A stretch of 38,175 nt of DNA, from the IMG/VR virus record IMGVR_UViG_3300010293_000015, positions 1-38,175 of that record, one strand, 5' to 3'. Source of the stretch: a virus. Under the pieces are notes generated by a model that was not told the DNA's origin, searched no databases, and saw nothing but the letters and a program-made list of their open reading frames with translations. A program made the translations under genes and the position numbers. The stretch's first letter is position 1, and the number at the start of each line of letters is the position of its first letter. Shown piece after piece: positions 10,577 through 15,178 of the stretch.

Positions 10577-10785
10577 TGCAACCCCGATGGCAATCGTTCA
10601 TAGAGGCCTGGGCTAACATCGGAGTAGGTTTCGGCCTGGCTCTACTGACCCAATTAATCGTTTTCCCGATGTACGGAATGGAGATTGATTTAACCGGCAA
10701 CCTTCAGATAGGGATGATATTCACGGGGATCAGCTTGGGGCGTTCATATTTTCTCAGGAGGGCTTTCAATAAATGGCATCGGTAG
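10576..10785 (+). CDS. Two-TM DUF7220-like phage membrane protein
   Basis: 69 residues. SFIEAWANIGVGFGLALLTQ followed by LIVFPMYG, then NLQIGMIFTGISLGRSYFLR and RAFN. This matches a widespread small phage inner-membrane family (DUF7220 by memory) with two helices and the RSYxLRRxFN end. Function unknown. The start overlaps the previous stop; the next gene starts inside its last codons. Confidence 0.7.
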   Translation: MQPRWQSFIEAWANIGVGFGLALLTQLIVFPMYGMEIDLTGNLQIGMIFTGISLGRSYFLRRAFNKWHR

Positions 10786-13019
10786 AGTATGAGCAATTCC
10801 TGGAATCAAAAAGGTTAAAGATAGAGGACGTGGGGAGAGAAGTAAGCAGAGATGAAATCAACCCCATCCTGTTTGACTTCCAGAAGGATATTGTTTGCTG
10901 GGCGGTGAAGAAGGGCCGATGCGCCGTATTTCTGGATACGGGGCTCGGGAAGACATTCATCCAACTGGAGTGGGCTCGTTTGATCGGTAAGAAAACTCTA
11001 GTTATTGCCCCGCTTTCCGTGGCCCGGCAGACAGTCCGGGAGGGAAAGAAGATCGGCATATCGGTTAATTATGTTAGGTCTGCCGAGGACATGGTGGAAG
11101 GCATAAACATAACGAATTATGAAATGGTCGAAAACTTCAATGCTGAGGATGCAGAGGCCATTGTGCTTGATGAAAGCAGTATCCTCAAGAGCCTCGCCGG
11201 GAAGACTAAACAAAAGCTTATCGAAAAGTTTTACCAAATAAAATATAAGTTATGCTGTACGGCGACTCCTGCCCCGAACGACTTCATCGAGTTAGGAAAC
11301 CATACCGCATTCCTGGGGATATGCACCCAACAAGAAATGCTGGCCATGTTTTTCATCAATGCCAACAAGGAGCATACTTTTATTTATGGGGACTTGATCC
11401 TGACAAAGAAAGGTTCTAATGCCAACGGGACCGAGTGGAGATTGAAACACCACGCCGAGGAAGCCTTCTTTAAGTGGATGGCTAAGTGGTCGATAACGAT
11501 GACCAAACCGTCAGACATTGGATATTCCGATGATGGGTTCATCCTCCCGCCATTAAATATAAATCCCTCATTCGCTCACGTTGATTATCGTCCCAACAAC
11601 CAGTTGTTTTTCACTGGACTTTCAGGGATTCAAGATCGGGTGAAAGTTAGGGTACGTTCGGCCGGTAGGAAGGCGGAGAAAATACCGGAATTAATAAACG
11701 GATCAGATGGCCAATGGATTATATGGTGCGGACTGGACGAAGAGGCAAAGCTGGCAAGGGAATTGCTCAATGGATTTTCACGGGAAGTAAAAGGATCGGA
11801 CCCTCCAGATGTTAAGGCATCCACGTTTGAGGACTTTCAAGATGGAAAATTTAAGGTACTAATCACAAAGCCAAAGATCGGGGCATTCGGGATGAATTTT
11901 CAAAATGCCTCAAATATGATATTTTTGGGCTTGAATGATTCGTGGGAAACCTATTATCAGGCTATTCGTCGGGAGTGGAGATTTGGGCAGAAGAAACCTG
12001 TCAATGTTTATCTTCTGCTTTCAGATGTTGAACGGGAAATTTATGACAACATCCAACGCAAGGATAAACAGGCATACCGCCTGCGAACTAAAATGATCGA
12101 GCAGTTAAAGGATTATGAAAAAGAAGAATTGTGGGGAGGGTCTATGGTCAAGGAAAAATACGAGGAGGAAACCATCAAAGAGGATGGGTGGGTAGCAATG
12201 CGGGGGGATTCAGTAGAACGGTTGAAAGAACTGGACGACAATTCCATCGACCTGTCTATATATTCTCCCCCGTTTGCGGATCTTTTCGTCTATTCCAATT
12301 CCGATCGGGATTTAGGAAACTGCCGTAATTGGGATGAGTTTTTCAAACATTACTTTTTCATAATCCAATCCGTACTCCGGGTTACTAAGCCGGGCCGGTT
12401 ATCATGCGTTCATACATCAGACATTCCGGCCATGGCCAACCGGGATGGATACATCGGGCTTAGAGACTTCCCCGGAGAGGTTATCCGATGGCATGAAAAG
12501 GCAGGCTGGATATTCGTGGGGCGGATATTCATTCAGAAAAACCCACAGGCCCAGGCCATCCGGGTAAAGTGCAAATCCCTTCTCTTTGTTCAAATGCAGA
12601 AGGATTCCAGTCATTCCCGCCCCGCGCTAATTGATCAGGTGCTAATCTTCAAGAAGCCCGGAGAGAATCAAAAGCCGGTTGAGCCGGTAAAGAATGGCGA
12701 GATGAATAACGAAATCTGGATCAGGTGGGCTCACGGGGTATGGACCGACATAAATGAAACCGAAACCCTTCAATACTATTCGGCGAGGGCGAAAGAAGAC
12801 GAAAAGCATATTTGTCCGCTTCAACTTGGGACCATTGAACGGTGCATTAAGCTCTACTCTAATCCCGGAGAAACTGTTTTGACCCCGTTTATGGGTATTG
12901 GGTCAGAGGCGTACATGGCGGTAAAGTTGGGAAGAAAGGCCAAGGGGATCGAATTGAAGGAATCCTATTACCGGACGGCAATACAAAATCTGCAATCAAT
13001 CCAAAGGACATTATTATGA
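10773..13019 (+). CDS. SNF2-like helicase fused to beta-class DNA methyltransferase
   Basis: 748 residues. The N-terminal half is an SF2 helicase: Walker A GLGKT (57-61), Walker B DESS (133-136), motif III CTATPAPND, and the motif VI region AIRREWRFGQKKPVNVYLL. The C-terminal 260 residues are a SAM-dependent amino-methyltransferase: catalytic SPPF at 498-501, then FMGIGSEAYMAVKLGRKAKG near 706. Catalytic motif before SAM motif is the beta-class order (N4-cytosine or N6-adenine). Phages are known to carry such fusions, probably to modify their DNA and evade restriction. GGAGG precedes the ATG. Target sequence cannot be predicted. Confidence 0.85.
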   Translation: MASVEYEQFLESKRLKIEDVGREVSRDEINPILFDFQKDIVCWAVKKGRCAVFLDTGLGKTFIQLEWARLIGKKTLVIAPLSVARQTVREGKKIGISVNYVRSAEDMVEGINITNYEMVENFNAEDAEAIVLDESSILKSLAGKTKQKLIEKFYQIKYKLCCTATPAPNDFIELGNHTAFLGICTQQEMLAMFFINANKEHTFIYGDLILTKKGSNANGTEWRLKHHAEEAFFKWMAKWSITMTKPSDIGYSDDGFILPPLNINPSFAHVDYRPNNQLFFTGLSGIQDRVKVRVRSAGRKAEKIPELINGSDGQWIIWCGLDEEAKLARELLNGFSREVKGSDPPDVKASTFEDFQDGKFKVLITKPKIGAFGMNFQNASNMIFLGLNDSWETYYQAIRREWRFGQKKPVNVYLLLSDVEREIYDNIQRKDKQAYRLRTKMIEQLKDYEKEELWGGSMVKEKYEEETIKEDGWVAMRGDSVERLKELDDNSIDLSIYSPPFADLFVYSNSDRDLGNCRNWDEFFKHYFFIIQSVLRVTKPGRLSCVHTSDIPAMANRDGYIGLRDFPGEVIRWHEKAGWIFVGRIFIQKNPQAQAIRVKCKSLLFVQMQKDSSHSRPALIDQVLIFKKPGENQKPVEPVKNGEMNNEIWIRWAHGVWTDINETETLQYYSARAKEDEKHICPLQLGTIERCIKLYSNPGETVLTPFMGIGSEAYMAVKLGRKAKGIELKESYYRTAIQNLQSIQRTLL

Positions 13020-13241: not shown

Positions 13242-14321
13242 ATGAATTACTATAACGACAACGATCCGAAGGCGTGCGCGTGGTTGCGCGAGTTGATCGC
13301 GCAAGGCCACTTGCCGCCGGGGACCGTTGACGAAAGGAGCATCCTTGAGATTGAGCCAATCGACCTTGCCGGATTCGACCAGTGCCACTTCTTCGCCGGG
13401 ATCGGAGGCTGGCCCCTCGCCCTGCGGTGGGCCGGACTCGAAGGCGTTGCCGGGATCTGGACCGGGTCATGTCCGTGTCAGCCGCTTTCGTGCGCTGGTA
13501 AAAGACAGGGACACGCCGATGAGCGCCACCTTTGGCCCGCTTTTTACCGCCTCATCGCCGAGTGCCGTCCTGCAACGATCTTTGGAGAGCAAGTTGCGTC
13601 AAAAGATGGACGTGAATGGTTCGCCGGAGTTCGTCTTGACCTGGAAGACCTGGGATATGCCTGCGGGGGAGCCGATCTGTGCGCTGCGGGCGTCGGAGCG
13701 CCGCACCGGAGACAAAGGCTGTTCTGGGTGGCCGACGCCGATTGTTTCGGACACACGGCACAGCGGATTCAGCGAGCACAGCAAGCACGACAAGTTGGTA
13801 TATGTGGCGCAACTGGCCACGTGGCCGACGCCGACCACGCAGCGACAGGTCGAGCCAGAGAAGGCGGACAGGGAGAATGCCAAGGGGAACTGGCAGGGAG
13901 TGACGGGGCTTGTGGGCTGGGCGACGCCATGTGCTCAGGGCGACTCGACTGGCGGAGGGTGCCTCGGCGACGCGATGAAGAAGGCCGCAGGATTGAAGCG
14001 ACCGAGCGGGGCCAGTTACGGGACGAAGTTGAACGAGCAAGTGCTCCTTGCGATTGGTCCCGATGCGACATCCTGCCCTGCTGGGACGGGAAAGCGCGGT
14101 GTGTTGAATCCCAACCACAGCAGATGGCTGATGGGGTATCCGCTCACCTGGACGCTCTGCGGAATGCTGGCCTTTCTGAAGACCAAATCGGCGCGGCGGT
14201 CAGCACGTTCCCGCTCACTGAGCATGCCGTCGGGCGCACGATGCTTCTCCGGGGCATGGGAAACGCGATAATTCCGCAACTTGCGGCACAGTTTATCCTT
14301 GCATGGCGCGAGTGTGTGTAG
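13242..14321 (+). CDS. C5 cytosine DNA methyltransferase
   Basis: 359 residues. Motif I FFAGIGG (50-56), motif IV SCPCQP with catalytic Cys79, motif VI FGEQVASKDG (EQV in place of the usual ENV), motif VIII HRRQRLFWVADAD, a variable target-recognition region, and motif X GNAIIPQLAAQFI at the end. This is the Dcm/HhaI family, which transfers a methyl group to C5 of cytosine. As a phage orphan enzyme it probably protects against restriction. The gene is clearly more GC-rich than its neighbours, and 11-bp direct repeats flank it. A second long frame overlaps it almost completely. Confidence 0.88.
   Translation: MNYYNDNDPKACAWLRELIAQGHLPPGTVDERSILEIEPIDLAGFDQCHFFAGIGGWPLALRWAGLEGVAGIWTGSCPCQPLSCAGKRQGHADERHLWPAFYRLIAECRPATIFGEQVASKDGREWFAGVRLDLEDLGYACGGADLCAAGVGAPHRRQRLFWVADADCFGHTAQRIQRAQQARQVGICGATGHVADADHAATGRAREGGQGECQGELAGSDGACGLGDAMCSGRLDWRRVPRRRDEEGRRIEATERGQLRDEVERASAPCDWSRCDILPCWDGKARCVESQPQQMADGVSAHLDALRNAGLSEDQIGAAVSTFPLTEHAVGRTMLLRGMGNAIIPQLAAQFILAWRECV
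13351..14271 (+). CDS. Overprinted gene inside the C5 methyltransferase gene
   Basis: A frame open for more than 300 codons, +1 relative to the methyltransferase. TTG starts at 13345 and 13351 follow AAAGGAG (13333-13339). The product starts SQSTLPDST and contains VSRFRALVKDRDTP, GSPEFVLTWKTWDMPAGEP, ICALRASERRTG, GWPTP and NPNHSRWLMGYPLTW. I recall a large family of phage and bacterial proteins with exactly these motifs, usually left as hypothetical. The overlap is thus probably a conserved dual-coding pair, not chance. Function unknown; Ser/Thr/Pro-rich N-terminus. Confidence 0.55.
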   Translation: MSQSTLPDSTSATSSPGSEAGPSPCGGPDSKALPGSGPGHVRVSRFRALVKDRDTPMSATFGPLFTASSPSAVLQRSLESKLRQKMDVNGSPEFVLTWKTWDMPAGEPICALRASERRTGDKGCSGWPTPIVSDTRHSGFSEHSKHDKLVYVAQLATWPTPTTQRQVEPEKADRENAKGNWQGVTGLVGWATPCAQGDSTGGGCLGDAMKKAAGLKRPSGASYGTKLNEQVLLAIGPDATSCPAGTGKRGVLNPNHSRWLMGYPLTWTLCGMLAFLKTKSARRSARSRSLSMPSGARCFSGAWETR

Positions 14322-14700: not shown

Positions 14701-14803
14701 GTAGGTGGCTTATCTCCGGGTAGCTCCCGGGGAGACAGCCCCAGCTCCTGGAGGGTTGCCACCTACCTACCTAAAAAAGTTATCCAGGGCCACAGGAGAA
14801 AAA
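14701..14803 (+). promoter_or_regulatory. Branched 5' leader of the DUF559 gene (riboswitch-like)
   Basis: A closing stem GTAGGTGGC (14701-14709) with GCCACCTAC (14758-14766) encloses two hairpins: a TCTCCGGG/CCCGG-GGAGA arm and a CCAG-CTC-CTGG arm, giving a three-way junction. A further CTAC repeat just after the stem could compete for the 5' strand. The ribosome site (AGGAG) lies about 30 bases downstream. It may be a regulatory leader or a processed small RNA. No known riboswitch class matched. Confidence 0.5.
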
Positions 14804-15178
14804 ATGTGCTCTATCCGTCATTTAGTAAATCCCATAAAATATAAACAGGCTAAAGAGATGCGTAGAAATCCTACGCCCGCTGAATATAAGTTGTGGCATG
14901 AAATCAGGGGGAAAAAGATTGGTGTACGTTTTGGGAGACAAAGAGTAGTCCGAGGGTATATTGTTGATTTCTATTGCCCTAGTATGAAATTAATTGTAGA
15001 AGTTGATGGAAATATTCATTTGCAAAAAGAGCAAAAAGAAAGGGATAAATTTAGAGAGACCATTTTAAACAGCATTGGTTTTCGGGTTTTAAGAATATCA
15101 AATGATATGGTTCTTAATCATATCTCTTTAGCATTAGATCAAATTAGGAGGGCTATTGATGAAGCCCGCCATGCTTAA
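14804..15178 (+). CDS. DUF559 (Vsr-like) endonuclease
   Basis: 124 residues from the ATG at 14804 with AGGAG upstream. RRNPTPAEYKLWHEIRGKKI (Glu27), VRFGRQRVV, GYIVDFYCPS (Asp55) and KLIVEVDGNIH (Glu66, Asp68, His72) are the hallmarks of DUF559, a PD-(D/E)XK family related to the Vsr mismatch endonuclease. Substrate unknown. The gene is AT-rich compared with the genes to its left, suggesting recent acquisition along with the next gene. It overlaps the Prim-Pol gene by 20 bases. Confidence 0.85.
   Translation: MCSIRHLVNPIKYKQAKEMRRNPTPAEYKLWHEIRGKKIGVRFGRQRVVRGYIVDFYCPSMKLIVEVDGNIHLQKEQKERDKFRETILNSIGFRVLRISNDMVLNHISLALDQIRRAIDEARHA

Follow-up and report, generated by a model that had tools for sequence, protein, structure and literature searches.

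The methyltransferase M.EcoHK31I comes from E. coli HK31, has the target YGGCCR, and includes a beta chain of 176 aa. In 1995, Lee, Kam and Shaw reportedly described its beta gene as nested in another frame of the alpha gene. One paper describes the enzyme as two polypeptides, the larger with motifs I-VIII, X and a predicted target-recognition domain (TRD), and the smaller with motif IX only (PMC3404938). Another calls it naturally split (PMC3439449), and a third names GenBank X82231 for its sequence (PMC6174562).

Here we analyse a locus in a virus record of 38,175 bases (the whole stretch examined, referred to below as the window). We consider it probable, at roughly 85%, that it encodes one C5 cytosine methyltransferase formed from two polypeptides read off the same DNA, an alpha/beta enzyme of the M.EcoHK31I kind. 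Alpha would bind SAM and carry out catalysis by means of motifs I, IV, VI, VIII and X, and beta, translated from its own Shine-Dalgarno site, would supply the target-recognition region and motif IX.

The two frames and their products

The alpha frame occupies positions 13242-14321 of the plus strand and encodes a C5 cytosine methyltransferase of 359 aa with motifs I-VIII and X (PF00145, phrog_363). Within it, the +1 frame is a second coding frame. The second protein, beta, runs on the same strand from TTG 13345 to 14271, and is annotated on the basis of phrog_1008, stop loss, and selection in relatives. A first-pass annotation had reported two long same-strand open frames at this gene, and these are indeed present (ORFs 13242-14321 and +1, to 14271), as are the motifs that it quoted. 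It had also placed a TTG start behind AAAGGAG at position 13351. The type of start and the Shine-Dalgarno site hold, and the position has to be corrected: the best-placed and best-scoring start is TTG 13345, behind AAAGGAG at 13333-13339 (plus strand, from direct reading and the start scan), which lies within the alpha codons for D-E-R-S. The longest ORF for beta starts at TTG 13327. The +1 frame is stop-free over 13297-14268, with its stop codon at 14269-14271. At 324 codons, this run is longer than the average of 191 obtained from 200 codon-shuffled copies (P 0.010), so that the open frame of the window is by itself suggestive rather than decisive, and it is the relatives that decide.

Alpha matches PF00145 with 58.5 bits (curated cut-off 22, E 1e-15, residues 74-164), with the PCQ catalytic motif present, and phrog_363 with E 4.9e-70. 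The motifs are all on the plus strand: motif I FAGIGG (13392-13409), motif IV SCPCQP with the catalytic Cys (13467-13484), motif VI GEQVAS (13584-13601; this motif is ENV in most C5 methyltransferases), motif VIII RRQRLF (13707-13724), and motif X GNAI (14259-14276), which is in the alpha frame, overlaps the end of beta, and has its GN in invariant columns. The key residues of all five are invariant or nearly so in alignments of 15 and 60 sequences, and Cys79 is in invariant columns of alignments A1, A4 and A6, which have shared members. The AlphaFold model has ten-residue blocks at 85 or above over residues 1-150 (except 81-90, at 69) and 341-359, with pLDDT below 50 over 191-235, and compares with M.HhaI at Z 14.3 and rmsd 2.7 (170 aligned). 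Inspection by eye found no clear motif IX in alpha. The alpha sequence DGKxRxVEP lines up with the start of the M.HhaI motif IX stretch, at a non-significant -3.8 bits; this alignment, and the constraint on alpha around IX described below, mean that part of IX might be in alpha. Alpha without beta would lack motif IX and a working TRD, and would therefore be inactive or non-specific.

Beta matches phrog_1008 (E 1.7e-21), as do all 101 beta rows (the window and 100 relatives). It matched no Pfam or NCBIfam model, and none of the 101 aligned rows matches Pfam at E 0.01. The conserved core of beta (13555-13710, plus strand; from alignments, AlphaFold and omega_beta) is a helix SPSAVLQRSLESKLRQKM and a hairpin FVLTWKTWDMPAGEPICALRASERRTG, situated over alpha motifs VI-VIII. 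It is followed by a TRD-like region (13729-14080, plus strand; from the omegas of relatives) with WPTP/WATP repeats at 13729, 13822 and 13918, across which the alpha frame is low-complexity, and about neutral in relatives. Next comes a motif IX-like sequence, LNPNHSRWLMGYPLTW (14104-14151, plus strand), which hhalign aligns with the part of a single-frame enzyme that holds motif IX. The conserved C-terminal motif of beta, LNPxHSRWLMGYPxEW (in a looser form LNPxxSRWLMGxPxxW), resembles motif IX of M.HhaI, LHPRECARVMGYPDSY.

The single-frame enzyme is gp70 of Mycobacterium phage ShiLan. The beta profile aligns to its residues 197-355, which hold PTP repeats and motif IX (hhalign probability 95, E 3e-8), and the alpha profile to its residues 65-160 (hhalign E 3.4e-22); phrog_1008 hits residues 196-388 at 2e-61, and also matches Phanphagia gp66, Eapen gp78 and the nested ORF of Bipolar. 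Profile comparison thus shows beta to be homologous to the TRD/IX half of the single-chain enzyme, and because of the hhalign and phrog_1008 matches to gp70 we take it to be the TRD-and-motif-IX half of a C5 methyltransferase. Of the roles suggested in the first-pass annotation, that of a partner is best supported, as phrog_1008 also covers the C-terminal half of a single-chain C5 methyltransferase; an anti-defence role would apply solely as self-protection of DNA, and a separate factor of this kind is not supported. Nor is the family wholly unexplained, as had been thought, since PHROGs and some GenBank records label it DNA methyltransferase or 'Mte8-like'.

Structure prediction was less informative for beta. 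The AlphaFold model is poor (pLDDT 59), and is better only around residues 81-120 (blocks 74-84) and 261-280. A Foldseek search with this weak model gave no match at E 0.001, which we count against our reading, and the beta profile gave no match to PDB sequences up to E 10. The N-terminal helix-hairpin of beta is probably a docking piece, and alpha and beta would probably assemble like the large and small domains of single-chain M.HhaI. The enzyme would most likely serve to methylate the phage DNA and so shield it from host restriction.

Upstream of the locus, at 10773-13019, is a gene for a SNF2-type helicase fused to an N6/N4 DNA methyltransferase domain (PF00271, PF01555), and the phage therefore has two DNA methyltransferases near each other. 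Downstream, at 14705-15178, is a DUF559/MTES_1575 endonuclease-like gene (PF04480 4e-31; PADLOC mREase_II 6e-10), which we take to be Vsr- or restriction-like in kind, by Vsr kinship. No cognate restriction gene was recognised beside the methyltransferase among the part of the window ORFs that was scanned.

Stops and starts in the second frame of relatives

Most relatives were gathered by way of the methyltransferase frame, to avoid selecting for the second one: DCM motifs gave 80 loci, the K1ind2 enzyme 46, and another relative 80. To these were added ten loci that had been retrieved with the second protein, and six phage records (L001-L003, L014, L015, L143). The gene set consists of 183 distinct complete genes including the window, with 10 cut or partial genes left out. 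Genes were excised as the open alpha frame around the match, so that a break in alpha in mid-gene leads to a short or dropped gene, and the openness of alpha in this set is therefore no test. For stop counts, the interior was defined as codon 60 to 40 codons before the end.

In 181 of the 183 genes the interior of the +1 frame is without stops. There are 2 interior +1 stops in total, compared with 543 expected when synonymous codons are shuffled within each gene, and the same shuffle gives an expectation of 9.8 stop-free genes. There is no such loss in the +2 frame, with 1938 stops observed and 1824 expected over the 183 genes. Homologues whose second frame is broken by stops, which would count against dual coding, are thus confined to two genes, L120 (codon 226) and L183 (codon 165), where the stops may represent decay or sequencing error.

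An open second frame could arise as a by-product of high G+C and conserved alpha residues, and the window, at 62% G+C and with a P of only 0.01, would on its own be compatible with this. However, the 183 genes range from 45% to 73% G+C, and since even those at the low end keep the +1 frame open, high G+C is no explanation. As a control, 18 single-frame relatives with 66% G+C have 109 +1 stops where 126.6 are expected, and none of them is stop-free. Moreover, in the middle of the gene it is the second frame that the codon-position bias follows, as described below. Codon shuffling, the behaviour of the +2 frame and the single-frame control together rule out chance or a G+C artefact, and we regard this explanation as already refuted, with next to no probability.

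Starts in the +1 frame were sought within codons 20-55, on condition that no stop followed before codon 70. Such a start is present in 182 of the 183 genes and in 63% of shuffles, and one with an upstream Shine-Dalgarno match in 140 of the 183, the corresponding figures being 15% for shuffles and 9% for the +2 frame. The start scan favours ATG and demands a frame open to codon 70, so that part of the gap to the shuffles reflects the absence of stops; among genes with any usable start, the Shine-Dalgarno match is found in 140 of 182 (77%), and in about 24% of shuffles. The best-scoring start is ATG in 165 of 182 genes, the score giving ATG a bonus. An invariant AGG at alpha Arg32 was considered as a universal ribosome site and rejected, being found in 19 of the 89 genes with the motif. 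It is nevertheless enriched there, the frequency among all Arg codons being 227/2613 (8.7%).

Selection along the gene

Substitution rates were obtained from 36 disjoint close pairs of 80-98.5% nucleotide identity, aligned as nucleotides. In an earlier alignment by alpha protein, no codon position clearly stood out in the middle of distant pairs, probably owing to misalignment of that region, and for this reason nucleotide alignment of close disjoint pairs was used. Substitutions per codon at DCM positions 1/2/3 are.036/.016/.173 upstream of beta,.041/.020/.121 over motifs I-VIII,.179/.084/.068 in the middle,.064/.022/.038 in the IX/X stretch, and.050/.018/.117 at the gene end. DCM position 1 is the wobble position of beta, and therefore the dominant frame changes from alpha to beta after motif VIII, and back again at motif X. 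The switch is not seamless. In the seven ten-codon bins before GNA, position 1 leads in 5 and position 3 in 2; the latter are bins -40 and -30, where DCM position 3 has changed more often than position 1, and we count them against our reading. Three of the 36 pairs lacked motif anchors and were dropped from the fine-bin and omega analyses. In the remaining 33, with a stricter gap filter, position 1 exceeds position 3 in 24 pairs in the middle (and is below it in 4), in 19 around IX (below in 6), and in 1 before beta (below in 24).

Omegas were calculated from substitution classes in the 33 pairs, using two estimators for each. Before beta, omega_beta is 1.11 (CI 0.59-3.23) and 0.77 (0.46-1.57), which serves as a built-in negative control. 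The first ~75 residues of beta are weakly constrained, as judged by values of 0.43 (CI 0.24-1.04) and 0.87 (0.62-1.15). For the beta core the estimators disagree, giving 0.26 (CI 0.18-0.41) versus 0.76 (0.54-1.03), the second of which depends on sites where alpha changes too, and these are scarce in the core. Omega_beta is low in the middle, at 0.20 (CI 0.11-0.57) and 0.21 (0.16-0.28), and around IX, at 0.17 (CI 0.10-0.34) and 0.37 (0.28-0.50). For alpha, the middle is about neutral, with omega_alpha of 0.99 (CI 0.47-3.38) and 1.00 (0.78-1.27), and around IX the values of 0.25 and 0.54 show that alpha is constrained there too. The first-pass annotation had expected constraint in both frames. 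This is true of beta most strongly in the middle and around IX, and weakly in its first ~75 residues, and alpha is about neutral in the middle. Its wider suggestion of dual coding is borne out by the stop loss, by the start and Shine-Dalgarno sites, and by the substitution rates, taken by codon position as well as by class: in the family, protein is encoded in both frames. The window is in none of the close pairs, and selection is therefore demonstrated for the relatives and not for the window.

The middle also differs in another respect. In the pair L042/L092, aligned by alpha protein, there are 21 changes in the 140 codons of motifs I-VIII versus 158 in the 142 codons of the middle. Such pairs, with similar motifs I-VIII and unlike middles, suggest that the middle is exchanged as a block, both frames together.

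The changing dominance of the frames could be explained in a different way, by ribosomal frameshifting that makes one enzyme, with the alpha frame read through motifs I-VIII, a +1 slip into the TRD and IX, and a slip back for X. The dominance of selection broadly tracks that path, from alpha to beta to alpha, and the single-frame relatives have all the parts in one frame. However, most genes give beta its own start and Shine-Dalgarno site, and there is some beta constraint over VI-VIII (omega 0.26 by one estimator and 0.76, CI 0.54-1.03, by the other), a region that frameshifting would leave untranslated in +1. In addition, alpha is at least 240 aa in 79 of the 80 loci picked by beta, despite its about neutral middle, and Eapen and Phanphagia carry two annotated genes with separate starts. 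We therefore consider frameshifting very unlikely, and continue to prefer two separately started chains.

Spread and comparison with known systems

The beta of the window is matched by 190 of 50,697 phage records (E < 1e-5). When bacterial-genome loci were picked by beta, all 80 of the best 80 among 160 hits overlap a DCM frame at +1, and no stand-alone beta was found among these 80. The odd loci are L288, with a longer alpha, L298, with a short alpha, and L299, with a shorter overlap. The record titles include Yersinia, Burkholderia, Brucella, Pseudomonas, Verrucomicrobia, Planctomycetes and Nitrospira. If beta were an independent protein, such as an anti-restriction or regulatory factor, its overlap with the methyltransferase would be incidental; the absence of a Pfam or NCBIfam match and the retention of its own start are compatible with this. 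Yet in these best 80 of 160 hits it was never found without the alpha frame, its homologue in a single-chain enzyme is the recognition half, and its companion alpha has no clear motif IX (by eye) and a TRD region that is about neutral in relatives. An independent beta is thus most improbable, and the two-chain enzyme remains the better description.

The Bipolar type is also dual-coded, having 1 interior +1 stop where 61 are expected (18 genes, several of them near-identical). In the record of Mycobacterium phage Bipolar (L313, 1291-2004), the nested +1 ORF is annotated (gp69, 1433-1984), and the surrounding methyltransferase frame is not. There are 54 other relatives of ShiLan gp70, some of them split genes with little overlap; the motif IX pattern is in +1 in 50, in +2 in two (L404, L415), and was not found in two (L360, L363). 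A third dual-coded subfamily is possibly, or even probably, represented by the IMG/VR contigs L387-L413, in most of which alpha has about 250 aa and motif IX is found in +1 near codon 214.

In all six intact E. coli prophage copies examined, beta is open over most of alpha, with the motif IX pattern in five (not L308) and the LTW core pattern in three (L305, L307, L308). RefSeq annotates alpha only, so that anyone who recoded and cloned the gene as annotated would probably obtain just half of the enzyme. In a further E. coli prophage copy, L304, the methyltransferase is annotated as two incomplete pieces, and in several other E. coli genomes two pieces are listed at the same match. E. coli genomes were also searched at distant DNA similarity for M.EcoHK31I itself, with matches in 68 and 66 records, and the seven hits that were inspected all lie among phage-type genes.

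On balance, we favour the view that dual coding is a property of a large class of C5 methyltransferases in phages and prophages, with at least two subfamilies (the window and Bipolar types) and possibly a third, aquatic one. The specificity half would be in +1 relative to the catalytic half, probably put there by frameshift, in one or several events, from an ancestor with a single chain, with selection alternating between the frames. The overlap would keep the subunits inseparable, and the middle would be replaceable as a block to change specificity. The family is an unusually large natural case in which two long proteins share nearly a whole gene and selection changes frame along it, and its single-frame, split and fully overprinted forms are a ready series for how such overlaps arise.

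ORF28 of Escherichia phage K1ind2 ('Mte8-like', phrog_1008) belongs to the family of beta, and is annotated over ORF29, a C-specific methylase. 'Mte8-like' is here a label only. It is probably derived from similarity to the EcoHK31I entry, MTE8_ECOLX being, we assume, the UniProt name of M.EcoHK31I. ShiLan gp70 matches alpha in its N half and beta in its C half, but is a single frame, and in 18 such genes +1 is not kept open. Phanphagia gp65/66 and Eapen gp79/78 likewise have a catalytic half and a TRD/IX half on two chains, with the second gene in +1. They differ in that motif X is with IX on the second chain, whereas here it is in alpha, and in that the overlap is short (251 and 23 bases), whereas here it is nearly complete.

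The closest likeness is to M.EcoHK31I, compared by description. The large chain has motifs I-VIII and X (I, IV, VI, VIII and X being those located here), motif IX is on the smaller chain, as it is here in beta, and its beta gene, reportedly, overlaps alpha in another frame, as is also the case here. The present beta is longer, at about 308-314 aa compared with 176 aa. A further difference is that the TRD of M.EcoHK31I is, in the published description, predicted to be in the large subunit, whereas here selection and homology place it in beta; because that published placement is itself a prediction, we have not used it as a defining feature. M.AquI, according to PMC3404938, is also split over two chains into a catalytic half and a TRD/IX half, but in the M.AquI type both IX and X are on the second chain, and here the motif X GNAI is in alpha. 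Among openly licensed papers we found no account of this overlap in phages, and the accessible parts of PMC5582158, PMC9409062, PMC3404938, PMC3439449, PMC6456624, PMC6174562 and PMC4574080 describe none. The overprinted alpha/beta kind is therefore already known from one bacterial enzyme, and it is its prevalence in phages and prophages, and the placement of the TRD, that look new.
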